NCBI RefSeq assembly: GCF_003344865.1
Contig: NZ_CP031165.1
Coordinates: 5,275,910-5,339,909 of the forward strand
Direction: 5' to 3'
DNA from: Euzebya pacifica
Lineage (GTDB): Bacteria; Actinomycetota; Nitriliruptoria; Euzebyales; Euzebyaceae
DNA length: 64,000 nucleotides
Positions within the stretch are counted from its first letter, which is position 1. Each line of letters starts with the position of its first letter. The translations under genes and the position numbers were made by a program. Below, piece after piece: positions 38,225 through 45,877 of this stretch. The notes below the pieces were generated by a model. It had not been told where the DNA came from and made no database searches. It saw nothing but the letters and a program-made list of their open reading frames with translations.

Positions 38225-39703
38225 GTGTCGATCCGCGACGACCTGCCCCGGACCGTTCGTCGGACGGTCCAGCTGTCGGCGCTTCCGGTGGGGTCGATCG
38301 GCGACAAGTTGGTGGGACTGTCCCGGCGGGTCGGAGGGGCAGATGCCGACACCGTCCGAGCCGACCTGCGCCAGCGCGCGGCCGACCGGATGCGATCGGT
38401 CCTCGGTGATGCGAAGGGTGGTGCGCTGAAGGCCGGCCAGCTGCTGTCGACGGTGGACGCCCTCTTCCCCGCTGACCCCGACGCGACCTGGGCACGTGCC
38501 CTCGCGGCGTTGCCCGCCGACAACCCTGCCCTGCCGTTCGCGCTGGTCGAGCCGGTGCTGGCGGCCGAGCTGGGCGACCGCTGGCGACGCCGGTTCGACA
38601 CGTTCGAGGAACGAGCGGTGGCGGCGGCCTCCATCGGGCAGGTCCACCGGGCCACGTTGCCCGACGGCCGCGCGGTGGCGGTCAAGGTGCAGTACCCCGA
38701 CGTCGCCGAGGCGCTGAAGGTCGACCTGGCGATCGTCTCGGTGATGACGCGGTTGGCCTCGACGGTGGCACCGGGAATGGCGTTGCCGCCGCTGGTTGCG
38801 GAGATGCGCGAGCGGCTGGTGGAGGAGCTGGACTACCGTCGCGAGGCCGATGTGCAACGGGCGTTCGCGACGGCCCACGCGGACAACCCCGGTGTGGTGA
38901 TCCCGGCGGTGCACCTCGCCACCCGCCGTGTGCTGGTGATGGACTGGCTGGACGGGATCCCGTTCACCGCGCTGGCCACAGGGGCCGTGTCGGGTTCTTG
39001 CGACGGGCGGCCCGCAACCCGACAAGCGGACGGCCACGACGTGGCCGAACGGCACCGCATGTCGGGCAACGACGACGGGCGGCCCGAAACCCGACACGCC
39101 GTCGACCACGCCGTCGACCAGGGCACGAGGGACGCGGCCGGGCGGGCGTGGACGCGGTTCCTCCTGTCGGGGCCGGAGCTGGCCGGCTGGCTGCACACCG
39201 ACCCGCACCCCGGCAACTTCCGCTGGTTCCCACCGGAGGGCCAGGACCGCGACCCCGACGACCCCCGGTCCGGGCGGCTGGGCGTGCTGGACTTCGGGTC
39301 GGCGCTGCCCATGCCCGACGGCATGCCTCGCACGTTCGGCCGGCTCATCTCCCTCCTCCGGGAGGAGGACGCCGAGACCACCCTCGCGGGGCTCCGGGCC
39401 GAGGGGTTCGTGCGACCCGGGGCCGACGTCGACGCCGTCAAGCTGCGCGACTACCTGGCGCCGTTCTCCGAACCGAGCCGCCACGACACCTTCACGTTCT
39501 CACCGGAGTGGCTGCAGGGGCAGTTCGGCCGGCTGGGCGATCCCCGCAACCCCGACTTCGCGGTCGCCCTGCAGCTGACGATGCCGGCCGAGCACCTGTT
39601 CACCCACCGGGTGTGGCTCGGCATCGTCGGCGTCCTCTGCCGCCTGCACGCCACCCTCGACATCGAGGCCGATGTCCGCCGCTGGCTACCGGGGCTCGAG
39701 TAG
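38225..39703 (+). CDS. ABC1/UbiB-family atypical kinase with in-frame repeat insertion
   Basis: 492 residues. Conserved features: KGGALKAGQLLS (the KxGQ motif near 65), AAASIGQVHRATLPDGRAVAVKVQ (Ala-rich loop and catalytic Lys), EELDYRREADV, DPHPGNF (catalytic loop) and LDFGSA (metal site). UbiB-like kinases act on prenyl-lipid or quinone metabolism. Between DGIPFTALATGA and the helix before DPHPGNF a segment of about 45 residues (roughly 255-300) is encoded largely by two copies of a 37-nt palindromic element. The catalytic elements remain in frame. GTG 38225 abuts the stop of the permease gene. Confidence 0.9.
   Translation: MSIRDDLPRTVRRTVQLSALPVGSIGDKLVGLSRRVGGADADTVRADLRQRAADRMRSVLGDAKGGALKAGQLLSTVDALFPADPDATWARALAALPADNPALPFALVEPVLAAELGDRWRRRFDTFEERAVAAASIGQVHRATLPDGRAVAVKVQYPDVAEALKVDLAIVSVMTRLASTVAPGMALPPLVAEMRERLVEELDYRREADVQRAFATAHADNPGVVIPAVHLATRRVLVMDWLDGIPFTALATGAVSGSCDGRPATRQADGHDVAERHRMSGNDDGRPETRHAVDHAVDQGTRDAAGRAWTRFLLSGPELAGWLHTDPHPGNFRWFPPEGQDRDPDDPRSGRLGVLDFGSALPMPDGMPRTFGRLISLLREEDAETTLAGLRAEGFVRPGADVDAVKLRDYLAPFSEPSRHDTFTFSPEWLQGQFGRLGDPRNPDFAVALQLTMPAEHLFTHRVWLGIVGVLCRLHATLDIEADVRRWLPGLE
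38988..39096. repeat. Two 37-nt palindromic elements within the kinase gene
   Basis: Elements at 38988-39024 and 39060-39096, 72 nt apart (24 codons). Both have the layout TGTCGGG-N6-CGACGGGCGGCCC-N4-CCCGACA. Their arms pair perfectly over 7-9 bp. They are read in the same frame: the encoded peptides are SGSCDGRPATRQ and SGNDDGRPETRH. Between them lies CGGCCAC-GAC-GTGGCCG, another hairpin. A third copy is at 44107-44143. Confidence 0.85.
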
Positions 39704-39726
39704 CCGCGGATACATCGGGCGGGGGG

Positions 39727-40398
39727 TCAGGTCCACAGGCCGGGTCGCTCGGCATCGACCCACCGGTACAGCAGGTCGCGTCCGGCCAGCTCGGCGTCGA
39801 CCTCCGACCGTGGCAGGCCGTCGCGGAACTGCTGGATGTGCCGCAGCTCGTGGCCCAGCACGAAGACGATGTCGTCCTCCGGCAGGGCGATTATCGTCGG
39901 GCCGGCCGTCTTGGCTCGGTGGTAGGTCCGCTCGGCCGGCAGCTGCCCTTCGGCCACGACCTGCGGCACCTTCAGGGTGACCAGGTACCGGGTGCCGACG
40001 GGGAGGCTCTTCGGGAACGGGACACCGTCGTAGGCCCGCCCGCTGACCCAGTACCGCGTGCGGTCCAGCGGCACGATCCGGCTGCCACCGCGACACAGCT
40101 CGAGGTCACGCTTGCGGCGGTACAGATGGCCGGGGCCAACCGCCGCCCCCTCGACGTAGGACTCGTCGGCGTTGTGGCGCAGCGGGCAGTCGGGCCGCCA
40201 GCACTGGGTGAACCAAACCCGTTTTACCCCGTGCCGCTTGACGTTGATCGCCACCCCCGTCAGGTCGAACGGGATCATGTCCAGGGCCGCCTCGACCACC
40301 CGGTCGACGTCGACGGGGAGGGTGTGGACGACGCTGAGGTGCGGTCCGGCCGACGAGCGGCCGGCCGAGCCGATCGAGGGTCGTGGTGCTCGTGCCAT
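39727..40398 (-). CDS. Putative zincin-like protein, family not recognised
   Basis: A 223-residue protein with no signal peptide. Near the C-terminus, VFVLGHELRHIQQFRDGLPRSEVDAE holds HExxH (His183, Glu184, His187) followed by Glu199/Glu203, the spacing of a gluzincin-type third ligand. Several cysteines are in the middle (CWRPDCPL, 66-72; LCRGG, 101-105). The N-terminal half is beta-rich. Possible metallopeptidase of short-range substrate, or a non-proteolytic zinc protein. I cannot assign a family by eye. Confidence 0.65.
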   Translation of the reverse strand: MARAPRPSIGSAGRSSAGPHLSVVHTLPVDVDRVVEAALDMIPFDLTGVAINVKRHGVKRVWFTQCWRPDCPLRHNADESYVEGAAVGPGHLYRRKRDLELCRGGSRIVPLDRTRYWVSGRAYDGVPFPKSLPVGTRYLVTLKVPQVVAEGQLPAERTYHRAKTAGPTIIALPEDDIVFVLGHELRHIQQFRDGLPRSEVDAELAGRDLLYRWVDAERPGLWT

Positions 40399-40457
40399 GT
40401 CTGCACCCTGTCACGACCCTGTGACGTCCGCCGCACGTCCTGCGGCGGACCTGTGGA

Positions 40458-42383
40458 TTACGGCTTCGGCCAGTCAGAGAAGACCGTGTCGCCGGCCGCG
40501 ACGTCGACCAGCGGCAGGTGCAGGACGGTGCCGTCGAAGTCGTCCCCGCCGAGGAAGACGTTCGTGAAGCCGCCGGGGTTGCCGGGCAGCGCCCACACCG
40601 TGTTGGAGGACTGCAGGATCATGCCGATGCGGTGGCCCGCCGGGACGACGTAGTCCTCGGGCAGGAACTCCACGTCGGCGCGGAACATGCCGCTCGGCGC
40701 ACCGGCCGAGGACTCCAGCCCCTCGCGGTAGTCCACGTTCAGGAAGCCGCGCTGGATGGTCTTGTATCGGTCGTTGGCGTCGATGTCGACCAGGATGGGG
40801 GTGATGTGGGTGCCGGAGATCGGGCCCAGCAGGGAGAAGTAGCCCTCGAGGACCGCCGAGCCGGCGATGCGGACGTCCCGGCCCAGCGGGGTCGTGGAGA
40901 ACGCCAGGGAGTAGTAGCCCTGCCCACCGAGCACGGCGGCCTTCTCGCCGTCGTTGGACCAGGGGTCGGTGCGGGAGATCTCCTCCGTCGAGGTGCCCGT
41001 GTCCAGCCACCCGGAGGTCGCGCCGTAGCTGCCCGAGCGTCCGGCCAGCGGACCGGCGAAGGCGTTGGTGTAGGACAGCTCGCCCACCTCACCGGTGCCG
41101 GGGCCGGGGATGCAGACCGGCGTGCAGTCGAGGTCCTGCTCGTAGGTGCGGTTGAGGAACAGCGAGGTGGTCTGGGTGGTGGCCGGTGGCCAGGTCTCGG
41201 AGAACGCGACCACACCGCCGCCGGAGGTCGTCTCGGTCTGGGAGCGCACGTGGGGGAAGCTCTCCACGACCGTCGCCCCTGCGTCCGCCGCGCTGCCCTC
41301 CAGCAGGTGGGCCCGCCAGAAGTTGTCGCGGAGCGTGGTGTAGCCGTCGCCGCTGCCGTTGGCGTGGCGGGACTGCGTCATCCACATCCGCAGGTCGAAC
41401 CCGTTCCCCTCGACCACGTCCGGCGTGGTGGGGTCGTCGGCGTACGGCGCGAGGGCCTCGTACAGGTACGTCGCCTCGTACTGCTTGACGTTGTAGTCGT
41501 TCCAGCCGTGGACGATCAGGGTGTTGGTCGTCCAGTCCTCGGCGTGGGTGGTGAAGTCCCGCTCGACCCAGAAGTCGGTGTAGTCGGGGTTGCGGCTGTA
41601 GGCCTGCATCTCGTGCTCGACGGCGTCGCACTCCGCAGCGCGGTCGGTGATCGACTCGGGCTCGTCGAGGTGGACGGTGTCCCCGAAGCCGTGGTCGAAC
41701 AGCAGCGGGGTGTCGAAGCCCTCGTCGGTCGCGGACTCGGAGTTGAGGAAGAAGCGCGCACCGTCCGAGTAGGCGTAGCCGTACCAGTGGCTGATCGCGG
41801 CGATGGGCACGATGGCCTTCAGCGGGGTGGTGCCGTCGGCGTCGATGGACGAACCGCGCTCGTCGGTCCACATGTCGAGCGGGGCGCCGGCGACCATGTT
41901 GGCCGTGGTGCCGTCGTAGGAGACGCCGGTCAGGCCGACCCGGCCGTTGCTCCAGTCCAGGAAGTTGCCGTCACGGTCGGGGATGTCGCCGGCCAGGAAA
42001 CGGATGGCGTCGACGCCGGCCTTCTGCTCGTTGTACCCGCCGTAGTCCCAGCAGCCGGTCGATCCCCGGGTGCCCAACACGTCGACGGCCGCCTCGGCGA
42101 TGCCCTCGGCCATCAGCCCGTTGCCGACGACCGTGCCCGTGCCCGTCGGGTCACCCAGGGTGTTGTAGGGCGACATGGACGCCTTGACGCCCTGGCCCGT
42201 GGCGTCGAAGGAGTCGTCGCGCCGGACCTCCACACGGATGTACTCCGTGGTGTCGTCGGGCAGGGTGGTCGGCACGTAGTGGACCGAGGTCACAGTGGCA
42301 GCCGACGACGGCAGCGCCGGAAGCACCAGCAGGGACAGCATGGCGAGGCCAGCGAGGAGGACACGAACGGGACGAGAGCTCAT
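40458..42383 (-). CDS. Secreted S15-type X-Pro dipeptidyl-peptidase
   Basis: 641 residues. A signal peptide (1-29, ending SSAA) leads to the alpha/beta hydrolase core with nucleophile elbow GVSYDG (Ser155), an acid in VHGWND and a histidine in SRHANGSGDG. The C-terminal jelly-roll (YFSLLGPISGTHITPILVDI, HRIGMILQSS) is the galactose-binding-like domain of PepX/CocE proteins. It should release X-Pro dipeptides or hydrolyse esters outside the cell. Its secretion and the other exported proteases here suggest growth on protein substrates. Confidence 0.9.
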   Translation of the reverse strand: MSSRPVRVLLAGLAMLSLLVLPALPSSAATVTSVHYVPTTLPDDTTEYIRVEVRRDDSFDATGQGVKASMSPYNTLGDPTGTGTVVGNGLMAEGIAEAAVDVLGTRGSTGCWDYGGYNEQKAGVDAIRFLAGDIPDRDGNFLDWSNGRVGLTGVSYDGTTANMVAGAPLDMWTDERGSSIDADGTTPLKAIVPIAAISHWYGYAYSDGARFFLNSESATDEGFDTPLLFDHGFGDTVHLDEPESITDRAAECDAVEHEMQAYSRNPDYTDFWVERDFTTHAEDWTTNTLIVHGWNDYNVKQYEATYLYEALAPYADDPTTPDVVEGNGFDLRMWMTQSRHANGSGDGYTTLRDNFWRAHLLEGSAADAGATVVESFPHVRSQTETTSGGGVVAFSETWPPATTQTTSLFLNRTYEQDLDCTPVCIPGPGTGEVGELSYTNAFAGPLAGRSGSYGATSGWLDTGTSTEEISRTDPWSNDGEKAAVLGGQGYYSLAFSTTPLGRDVRIAGSAVLEGYFSLLGPISGTHITPILVDIDANDRYKTIQRGFLNVDYREGLESSAGAPSGMFRADVEFLPEDYVVPAGHRIGMILQSSNTVWALPGNPGGFTNVFLGGDDFDGTVLHLPLVDVAAGDTVFSDWPKP

Positions 42384-42454
42384 GCGCCTACTGTTCGCGG
42401 TCCACCGACCGGATTCCTGCTGACCGGTCGAGCAAACGAGGAGGAGGAACGACG

Positions 42455-43492
42455 GTGCGCGGAGTGGTGTTCCAGGGTCCCGAACGGGTCGAGGTCGCAG
42501 AGGTCCCCGACCCGCGGGTGGTCGAGCCGACCGACGCGGTGATCGCGGTGACCCGTGCCGGCCTGTGCGGTTCGGACCTGCACCCGTGGACCGGTACCGA
42601 ACCCGCTGCGGCCGGGGTCGTGTGCGGGCACGAGGCCGTCGGCCGAGTCGTCGCCGTGGGCGCCGACGTCCGCACGGTCACACCCGGGGACGACGTCATC
42701 GCCTGCTTCACCACCTCGTGCGGACGCTGTGGCCCGTGCAGGGAGGGGTTGACCGCCCGGTGCGTGCACGGCCAGCTGCTCGGGTGGGCCCCGCCCGGCC
42801 GGCCCGCCGAGGGGCTGCACGGCGCGCAGGCGCAGCTGCTGCGGGTGCCGCTGGCCGACGGGACGCTCGTCCATCGCCCGGGCGACATCAGCGACGACGC
42901 CGCGGTGCTGCTGGCCGACAACGCCCCGACCGCCTGGTACGCCGCCCGTCGGGCCGAGGTTGCCGACGGCGCCCGCGTCGGCGTGATCGGTCTCGGCGCG
43001 GTCGGGCTGTGCGCGGTGGCGTCGTGTCTCGCGCTGGGTGCGTCGGCCGTCGTTGCGGTCGACCCGGTGCCCTCGCGCCGGGCTGCGGCCGATCGCCTCG
43101 GGGCCAGCACGAGCGCACCGGACGACGAGGGCCTCGTCGCTGCGGGGCTGGACGCCGTGATCGACGCCGCCGGGCCCCCGTCCGCGCAACGGCTGGCCGC
43201 CGCGATGGTCCGCCCCGGTGGCATCGTGTCGATCATCGCGGTGCAGACGGCCGAGGCGTTCGGCATCTCTCCGGTCACCGCCTACGACCGAAACCTGACA
43301 ATCCGGGCGGGCCGTGCCCCGGTCAGGGCGATGCTGGAGGAGGTCCTGCCGGCGATCACCGCGGGCAGCCTCCGGTTGCCGGTCGAGGAGGTCGTGACCC
43401 ATCCGGGCCTGCCACTGGCCGACGCCCCCGAGGCCTACGCCCGGTTCGCCGCCCGCGAGGACCGGATGGTCAAGGTCACGTTCGCGCCCTGA
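42455..43492 (+). CDS. Zinc-dependent alcohol dehydrogenase-like oxidoreductase
   Basis: A 345-residue MDR-superfamily enzyme. Catalytic zinc ligands Cys38 (GLCGSD) and His59-Glu60 (GHE) are present. The structural zinc lobe uses Cys89, Cys92, Cys95 and Cys103. The Rossmann motif GLGAVG starts near 174, and VDPVPSRR suggests NAD rather than NADP preference. Substrate unknown. GTG 42455 has GAGGAGGAAC upstream. It is divergent from the S15 peptidase with a 71-bp shared promoter region. Confidence 0.9.
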   Translation: MRGVVFQGPERVEVAEVPDPRVVEPTDAVIAVTRAGLCGSDLHPWTGTEPAAAGVVCGHEAVGRVVAVGADVRTVTPGDDVIACFTTSCGRCGPCREGLTARCVHGQLLGWAPPGRPAEGLHGAQAQLLRVPLADGTLVHRPGDISDDAAVLLADNAPTAWYAARRAEVADGARVGVIGLGAVGLCAVASCLALGASAVVAVDPVPSRRAAADRLGASTSAPDDEGLVAAGLDAVIDAAGPPSAQRLAAAMVRPGGIVSIIAVQTAEAFGISPVTAYDRNLTIRAGRAPVRAMLEEVLPAITAGSLRLPVEEVVTHPGLPLADAPEAYARFAAREDRMVKVTFAP

Positions 43493-43496
43493 TCCT

Positions 43497-43551
43497 CGAC
43501 CGTCCAGGGCGCGAGGGGGGCCGGTCCGTGGACGGGGCGGATGGACGGTCG
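43497..43551 (+). terminator. Stem-loop after the dehydrogenase gene
   Basis: CGACCGTCC (43497-43505) pairs with GGACGGTCG (43543-43551), enclosing a GC-rich 37-nt loop, 4 nt after the stop codon. It may act as terminator or be a chance stem in GC-rich DNA. Confidence 0.4.
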
Positions 43552-43612
43552 GCCCGGCAGGGTGCATGCGGCGACGGTTACGATCGTGTGCCCGATCCGA
43601 CCGGAGCCATCG

Positions 43613-44086
43613 ATGTCTGCCGCCCCCGCCATGCCGACCGACCTGACGCTCGCGCTGGCCGACGCCGAGGGCCGCTGCATGGACGCCCACGGCGACGCGG
43701 CCGAGGTGCTGCTGCAGATGATCGGCAGGCTCGTCGCCAGGCACCACCCCGACGCGACGGGCCTGGCAGTGAGCCACCAGCCCCAGCGTTCCGGCTGGCA
43801 CGTCGTCTCCGTCGTCACCCGCCACGGGTCGGTGCCGTCGGGTCTGCCGGTCGCCGGACAGGAGCCGTCGGAGGCCCGTTGGATCGCGGGCCAGCTCGAC
43901 GTGCTGGTCACCCGCCTCGACGACCACCTGCGCGCGGTCGGCCGCACGCTGCCCGTCGACGACCCCAACGGCGGGCGACGCCTCCCCCTCCCCGGCATGG
44001 AGGCCCCGACCCTGCTGCTGTCGCTGGACATCACCGCCCCCGCACCCCGCACCTCGGCCGGCCCCACCCTCTTCGCCGCCAGCTGA
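43613..44086 (+). CDS. Small protein of unknown function
   Basis: A 157-residue soluble protein, mixed alpha/beta, with no motif I recognise. Conserved-looking stretches: EVLLQMIGRLVARHHPDA, EARWIAGQLDVLVTRLDDHL, PTLLLSLDITAPAP. A -10-like TACGAT at 43578-43583 precedes it. Start ATG 43613 chosen over an in-frame ATG at 43541 because codons before it read as Arg/Pro-rich non-coding-like sequence. Confidence 0.5.
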   Translation: MSAAPAMPTDLTLALADAEGRCMDAHGDAAEVLLQMIGRLVARHHPDATGLAVSHQPQRSGWHVVSVVTRHGSVPSGLPVAGQEPSEARWIAGQLDVLVTRLDDHLRAVGRTLPVDDPNGGRRLPLPGMEAPTLLLSLDITAPAPRTSAGPTLFAAS

Positions 44087-44106
44087 CCCAGCCCAACCCC
44101 GACGCT

Positions 44107-44143
44107 TGTCGGGCGATCACGACGGGCGGCCCACAACCCGACA
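44107..44143. repeat. Third copy of the 37-nt palindromic element
   Basis: TGTCGGG-N6-CGACGGGCGGCCC-N4-CCCGACA, identical in length and in its 27 constant positions to the two copies in the kinase gene. Here it is intergenic, between two convergent genes, 6 nt before the stop codon of the glycosyltransferase, where it could act as a bidirectional terminator. Confidence 0.8.
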
Positions 44144-44149
44144 CGCGGG

Positions 44150-45877
44150 TCAGGGGGCCAGCTCGGCCCGCAGCGCCTCGGCCTCCTCGCGCAGGGCCGG
44201 ATCGACGTGGCCCAGCGTCAACCCGTGGGCCAGGATCTCGCGGGCGGCGTCCCGCTCACCGTGGGACCCCAGTGCCCTGGCCATGGCCACCCCTCGCGCC
44301 GGGTTGGTGACCGCCGACAGCACCAGCAGCTCCAGCGCCGCCGGGGCCAGCTGACCCACGAGCTCCACCAAGCCGGCGAACAGGGCCGGGTCGACCACGG
44401 CAGCGACGGCCTCCACCCCGTGGCGACCACGATCGTCGTCGAACAGCTCGACCAGCACCGCGGCGCTCAGCAGCCGATCGGTGGCGTCCAGCGTCTCGCT
44501 CGACACCCGGTTGGCCAGCGGGCAGTGGGCCGACAACCCCGCGGCGCGAGCGCGGGCAGACCACTTGACTGCTTGCTCGAGGTGCAGCTGGTCGGACACG
44601 AGCGGCGCGAAGGCCACCGTCATGGCGCTGCCCGGGTACGCCTCGTCGAGCCCCTCCAGCAGCTCCGACACGCCGGGCCCGGGGGCTGCGGCCAGCTCGG
44701 CCAGGACCAGCCGGCAGCGGTCGACGTCGCCGACCAGGTCCAGCAGCACGACCACCCTGTCGAGCTGGCCGAGCTCGTGGTACGCGGCGACGAGCTGCGG
44801 CCAGATCCGCATCGCCCCCTCACCTGCGGCCTCCAGCAGATGGGCCACGCCCTCGCGGGTCCGGCCGGCATCGAGCAGCGCCAGCCCGAGGTCGGCGCGG
44901 ACGCGTTCGGCCGCCGCCCCCACGCCGTCGTCGTGCGGCACGACGCCGGCGTTCCCCGCGGCCGCGGCCAGCGCCGACTCGTAGGCCGCCACGAACGCGT
45001 CGACCCGTCCGAGCGCCACCAGCACCTCGGCCCGGACCACGTCGACAGCGCCGGCGAACCGCGACGCGTCCTGCAACGCGTCCACCCACGACAACGCCTC
45101 CTCCGCACGGCCCAGCGCCACCAGCGCGGCGGCGCCGTGGGCCAGCGCCGTCCGCCGGACGAACCCGTCGTCGGCGTGGCGGGCCTCCTCGAAGCGCACC
45201 ATCGCCTCCTCCATCCGTCCGGCGGCCGCGAGGGTGCGGCCCAGGTCGACCACGCCGCGCAGCCCGGCGCCGTCGGCGATCGCTGCCTCGCAGATCCGGA
45301 TGTTGCGCTCGGTCTTGCCGCGTTCGTCGACGATCCGCTGGATGTAGCCCCAGTGCCCGATCGTGGCCAGCGACGTCCGCTCCACCTGCAGGGTCGCATC
45401 CGACCGGTTGGGACGGACCTCCTCGTGCAGCCGACCCTCGTAGCGGATCCGGCGGCGCCGCAGGACCCGCAGGCTCTGGTGGGACATGCCCACCGTGCCC
45501 ACCTCGTCCCGGTAGCTGTCGACGGTGACCTGCAGGGCGTCTGCCCGGGAACGCCGAAGGGTCCGTCGCAGGCCCGCAACGTCGTGCACGAACAGCACCT
45601 CGTCGGCATCCACGACCACCGCCCAACGGCCCGTGCAGTGGTCCAGCACCTCGTTGCGCGACCTGCCGAAGTCGTCGTACCACTCGCCCTCCACGACCCG
45701 GGCACCGGTCGCCCGGGCCAGCTCGACGGTCCGGTCGATCGACCCGGTGTCCAGCACGACCACTTCGTCGACGACGCCCTCCAGGGAGGCGAGGCACCGC
45801 TGGATGACCGCCTCCTCGTCGCGGACGATGATGGCGGCCGACAGCAGCGGTGCCGGTGGGGGCGACGTGCGGGACAT
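44150..45877 (-). CDS. Family 2 glycosyltransferase with C-terminal TPR-like repeats
   Basis: 575 residues. The GT-A domain (about 10-190) starts LLSAAIIVRDEEAVIQRCLASL, has LDTGSIDRT and the metal-binding DxD in VVDADEV. The remainder is Ala-rich alpha-helical repeat sequence, TPR-like (LGRTLAAAGRMEEAMVRFEEARHAD; AHGAAALVALGRAEEALSWVDAL). The same layout is found in SunS/EpsE-like and actinobacterial cell-surface GT2 proteins. No membrane helix. Acceptor unknown. Confidence 0.85.
   Translation of the reverse strand: MSRTSPPPAPLLSAAIIVRDEEAVIQRCLASLEGVVDEVVVLDTGSIDRTVELARATGARVVEGEWYDDFGRSRNEVLDHCTGRWAVVVDADEVLFVHDVAGLRRTLRRSRADALQVTVDSYRDEVGTVGMSHQSLRVLRRRRIRYEGRLHEEVRPNRSDATLQVERTSLATIGHWGYIQRIVDERGKTERNIRICEAAIADGAGLRGVVDLGRTLAAAGRMEEAMVRFEEARHADDGFVRRTALAHGAAALVALGRAEEALSWVDALQDASRFAGAVDVVRAEVLVALGRVDAFVAAYESALAAAAGNAGVVPHDDGVGAAAERVRADLGLALLDAGRTREGVAHLLEAAGEGAMRIWPQLVAAYHELGQLDRVVVLLDLVGDVDRCRLVLAELAAAPGPGVSELLEGLDEAYPGSAMTVAFAPLVSDQLHLEQAVKWSARARAAGLSAHCPLANRVSSETLDATDRLLSAAVLVELFDDDRGRHGVEAVAAVVDPALFAGLVELVGQLAPAALELLVLSAVTNPARGVAMARALGSHGERDAAREILAHGLTLGHVDPALREEAEALRAELAP

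Follow-up and report, generated by a model that had tools for sequence, protein, structure and literature searches.

Dispersed 37-nt palindromic elements, within genes and between convergent genes, in Euzebya pacifica

Introduction

Why should the same palindrome lie twice inside the gene of an atypical kinase, where it is translated, and a third time between two convergent genes? The question is raised by a stretch of 64,000 nucleotides from the genome of Euzebya pacifica (NZ_CP031165.1, positions 5,275,910 to 5,339,909), below called the window, in which an initial annotation had described three 37-nt elements and proposed for them a mobile or spreading REP-like family that is tolerated within genes. 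The features concerned are the following, all numbered within the window.

38225..39703, + strand: ABC1/UbiB-type atypical kinase gene, host of the insertion (open reading frame and PF03109)
38981..39115, + strand: ABC1 insertion, approximate limits from comparison with orthologues (residues ~253-297)
38988..39024, + strand: type A element, first of the direct pair, translated in the ABC1 gene as VSGSCDGRPATRQA
39025..39059, + strand: pair spacer of 35 nt (start-to-start distance 72 bp, reading frame preserved)
39060..39096, + strand: type A element, second of the pair, translated in the same frame as MSGNDDGRPETRHA
43541..44086, + strand: open reading frame (ORF list) with its stop 20 bp ahead of the intergenic copy
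44107..44143, + strand: single type A element between convergent genes, 20 bp past one stop and 6 bp off the other
44150..45877, - strand: convergent open reading frame (ORF list), its end 6 bp beyond the intergenic copy

Results

All three copies match TGTCGGG-N6-CGACGGGCGGCCC-N4-CCCGACA without a mismatch, and shuffled windows contain on average 0.01 matches (maximum 1); the common length and layout first reported are thus exact. Each inverted arm extends over about 11 bp (CGCGTGTCGGG/CCCGACACGCG), and a 37-bp copy with its extended arms measures about 45 bp. The ABC1 reading frame is open throughout its 492 amino acids (PF03109, E = 3e-49) and carries both palindromes in one frame, while the third copy fills the gap between the convergent ORF ends at 44086 and 44150, both as the initial annotation had it. 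Rfam gave no gathering matches in the window and, near related loci, subthreshold miRNA matches only.

The palindromes are not confined to this region. With up to three mismatches allowed, 64 copies were counted in the two contigs of the 6.37-Mb genome, 32 on each strand and all on the larger contig, against none for the reversed pattern used as control, and this whole-genome search bears out the dispersed REP-like family that had been anticipated. Each element consists of 27 fixed and 10 variable positions, and most copies form direct pairs, 72 or 73 bp from start to start; the typical unit, R-S-R, places two 37-bp copies in the same orientation around a spacer that is almost always 35 or 36 bp long and differs in sequence at almost every locus. 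A CRISPR mini-array was considered and set aside on account of the ten variable positions per repeat, the dispersed pairs and the copies inside genes. The exact type A pattern was found in none of 84,980 GTDB genomes, a set from which the own and very near genomes were possibly left out; the second replicon had no match in the plasmid collection, and a search of the open-access literature returned no description of these repeats. Two further repeats of the same genome were seen in passing: a different direct repeat with 72-bp spacing (CGGCGCGATCGGGGCCCAACCCACCC; L171, G000:C1 about 1171761), outside the palindrome family, and tandem palindromes of type D (TGTCGGATCAGTCGACC...) with a spacing of exactly 50 bp (L271:1391-1527 and L271:4991-5127; G000:C1 about 1075290 and 1078890).

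Intergenic copies favour the 3' ends of genes. Eighteen of the 35 intergenic sites in this genome (G000) lie in convergent gaps, against 13% of all gaps of at least 40 bp (p = 4e-8), a figure that is approximate because the genes were called with a simple codon-usage caller and a few elements themselves enlarge the gaps; stops are often 4-33 bp from the elements. In Actinoplanes lutulentus, with a dialect of its own, the corresponding counts are 22/39 and 17/139 (p = 5e-8); the convergent bias is weaker in G015 and absent in G001. The orientation of intergenic copies relative to co-directional genes appears biased in G000, whereas no such bias is seen in the sister species of the same genus (G002). 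The placement at 3' ends, mainly in convergent or unidirectional gaps, is that known for REPs.

Some copies lie inside genes. In ABC1, the insert at residues ~253-297 is missing from nine of the ten orthologues aligned, namely G001, G003 and seven order-level genomes, so the conserved stretch that would have marked a normal insertion is not there; in the sister species, the site is occupied by a different dialect, type B. AlphaFold2 models the insert as a disordered loop, with pLDDT below 50 at residues 255-294, between two helices. Whereas the orthologue comparison covers ABC1, in-frame status was established for four further genes: QueA, the C-terminus of a prolyl oligopeptidase, a 527-aa protein with no Pfam match, and an ORF uniting two ABC-2 permease halves (L071:724-2439 in the own genome, L126 in G002), where an in-frame palindrome pair serves as the linker, in opposite orientation, and is of type A in one species and of type B in the other. 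With at least five such genes, the suggested likeness to the palindromic elements of Rickettsia is upheld. All five hosts use one frame relative to the palindrome ends (x-S-...-R-H/Q-A/T), the exception being the C-terminal extension of an EamA transporter (L017), read in another frame. In all six coding pairs, from three genes in the two species and of type A or B, the copies are 72 bp apart, and both stay in frame because of this spacing.

Comparison with the sister species gives the family a history. Among 40 relatives, the type A motif occurs in G002 alone, with 30 mostly single copies; type B has 28 copies there, mostly paired at the same spacing, and six in the own genome. Judged by the flanking genes, many element sites are orthologous between the two species, and at about eight of these, ABC1 included, a type A pair in one species faces a type B or B-like pair in the other. 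At five dialect-switched loci, the AA at positions 9-10 that is typical of B-like copies survives in 7 of 12 type A copies, whereas elsewhere it is seen in 4 of 53 (p = 3e-4), which suggests that the dialect changed in place rather than through independent insertions. One site of the own genome (L020) is cleanly empty in G002, and gain or loss has therefore continued after the species split. The expansion of the family predates that split, after which many copies have been passed down without a change of locus. In the deeper relative G001, one of about 20 sites is shared, which we estimate to be not beyond chance, and in 400 kb of the noncarrier G003 there are no repeats of this kind at the same spacing. 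The same 400 kb (G003:C1:1-400000, L143-L162) contains a repeat around GAGGTCAGGTTCCCCACC, occurring up to six times and unrelated to the palindromes.

Fixed and variable positions within the same copies provide a clean internal control showing selection on the motif itself. At ten orthologous, noncoding sites with type A in both species, fixed positions are 96% identical (259.5/270) and variable positions 71% (71/100; Fisher p ~7e-11), whereas random cross-species pairs of copies give 94% and 42%; the excess at the variable positions means that orthologous copies share descent. Fourfold sites in neighbouring genes are 55-79% identical between the species, and a neutral simulation run under the same cut-off for detection yields 73%, never 95%, so the conservation of the fixed positions is not an artefact of ascertainment. 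The variable positions drift at a near-neutral rate and the fixed ones are under strong purifying constraint. Mean mismatches are about 1.1 both in G000, with mostly pairs, and in G002, with mostly singles, within the cut-off of three; since the G002 singles are no less conserved than pairs, pairing is not a strict requirement. Taken as sequence, the motif is inherited and constrained and lacks the look of fresh spread: with fixed positions held while variable ones drift, the copies do not appear to be spreading at present, and the spreading family of the initial annotation finds no support here.

Its proposed RAYT (TnpA-REP) partner did not turn up either: the profile Y1_Tnp (PF01797) has no match in the own genome or in 14 of the 15 relatives tested, and in G012 it matches a short open frame of 77 aa only. 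What the own genome does have is an IS30-family element with rve and HTH_38 domains, present in about ten copies or parts (G000:C1:127333-128573 and others, L276-L286). At least six copies with readable flanks interrupt a 37-nt element (type A, B or D) at the same point, about 15 nt in, and the insertions leave 3-bp repeats; one further copy adjoins an element instead of interrupting it.

Elements with other interiors and spacings share the 37-nt TGTCG...CGACA frame in relatives and in Actinoplanes lutulentus. The bare frame TGTCG-N27-CGACA occurs 135 times in the own genome, 74 times in G002, 22 in G001, 102 in G015, 25 in G017 and 24 in G022, while the reversed control gives 0-7 in every genome, and pair spacings in this wider class cluster at 40, 50, 60-62 and 72-74 bp. 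In Actinoplanes lutulentus, at least 45 loci show a spacing of 61/62, and the copies of this species combine the fixed dyad TGTCGA.TT..GG..CG.A.CG..CC..AA.TCGACA with free bases between, without covariation. The same species carries dispersed noncoding repeats of about 540 bp (L324:7328-7876 and alike), which contain the palindrome pair along with a long hairpin that is almost perfect (GCCGTAGCTCAGATAGGTCATC); no coding gene was seen in these longer repeats. Types A and B, whose core has no dyad symmetry, likewise show no base-pair covariation at variable positions, which leaves a REP-type RNA or single-stranded DNA hairpin unsupported for them and favours recognition as double-stranded DNA. 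Covariation is present in the element types of G001 and G008, and a hairpin role may be conceivable within the wider class.

Discussion

Our preferred explanation, which we put at about even odds of being right as a whole, is that the palindromes are a REP-like family of dispersed DNA elements, with a sequence family specific to this and the sister species, and belong to a class outside the RAYT systems: their copies would be paired, double-stranded sites for a putative protein at gene 3' ends, the in-frame copies being tolerated by-products. The putative protein would read the largely dyad-symmetric site as double-stranded DNA, and the phased pair would bind it on one face of the helix. Acting at gene 3' ends, it would most plausibly serve, where genes converge, as a barrier to transcription or supercoiling or as a sink for them. 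The original copying would have been the work of a system different from a Y1/RAYT transposase, and the in-frame copies would be old insertions that survived not through any need of the protein for them but because the peptide encoded in the frame used is soluble and unstructured. To our knowledge, neither a source nor a reader is known for REP-like repeats lacking a RAYT; two sister species with the same sites in two dialects now offer a concrete basis for finding the recognising protein.

Other explanations have to be weighed against these data. The copies could be a selfish miniature transposon in the manner of REP/REPIN or IS200/605 MITEs, recently active with a transposase supplied in trans, their conservation reflecting recent copying; dispersed copies, doublets, copies inside genes, taxon-specific dialects and the single site that is cleanly empty in the sister species would all fit. 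We nevertheless consider it rather improbable, given that Y1_Tnp is missing from the own genome and from nearly all class-carrying relatives, that the variable positions record descent (71% against 42% in random pairs) with the fixed ones undecayed, that spacers differ at almost every locus, unlike those of fresh copies, and that the doublets are direct, with none of the inverted layout.

Less probable still are bidirectional terminators or 3'-UTR hairpins acting as RNA, to which the location between convergent stops, the GC-rich palindromic arms and the covarying dialects of G001 and G008 would point. A terminator can do without a shared sequence, whereas here 27 positions are fixed; types A and B do not covary, no U-tract was seen, and for two of the three window copies the predicted folding is no better than that of shuffled sequence. 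We give virtually no credence to the ABC1 segment being an ordinary protein insertion with the palindrome a codon-level coincidence: the frame is open and encodes an SGxxDGRPxTR peptide, as such an insertion would, but dozens of copies of this DNA motif lie outside genes, and the absence of the segment from nine of ten orthologues already contradicts it. The paired-site explanation may have a wider frame. As a tentative proposal, and one more doubtful than the explanation itself, the elements may represent an undescribed class across Actinomycetota, of 37-bp genome-specific sites with constant TGTCG/CGACA ends in tandem pairs at about helical-turn spacing, whose putative DNA-binding reader would have a recognition code that shifts between lineages; orthologous sites would then change their dialect together, with their location and pairing retained.

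Compared with the REPs of the GTAG and CGTC superfamilies (PMC3733652), the elements are alike in being palindromes within the range of 20-40 bp, present in dozens of copies and as dimers, near the 3' ends of convergent ORFs and sometimes in genes; CGTC families also occur without a dedicated transposase. They differ in having no unpaired GTAG/CGTC tag, the TGTCG end being paired with CGACA in every dialect (for the wider class, this is fixed by the search pattern itself), and in their direct head-tail dimers, which the survey found absent, under-represented or negligible. Lack of a RAYT, the fixed 37-nt length, the phased spacing and the occurrence in Actinobacteria, which are not among the phyla listed in that survey, set them further apart. 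With REPINs (PMC3116915), they share the doublet as common unit and a spacer less conserved than the repeats; REPIN doublets, however, are inverted and tied to a RAYT, and REPIN singlets are more degenerate, whereas here the doublets are direct, without a RAYT, and singlets are equally conserved. Insertion at one fixed point of the palindrome recalls the IS families that target REPs, among them IS3, IS110, IS4, IS256 and IS5 (PMC1525189), the IS30 family being outside those named. The Rickettsia palindromic elements, reviewed in PMC10969869, are similar in lying in frame within unrelated genes and encoding a tolerated peptide, but they are about 150 bp long; ours differ in phylum, sequence and size, and most copies are intergenic and constrained. 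In-frame palindromic insertions are now extended to a high-GC actinobacterium.
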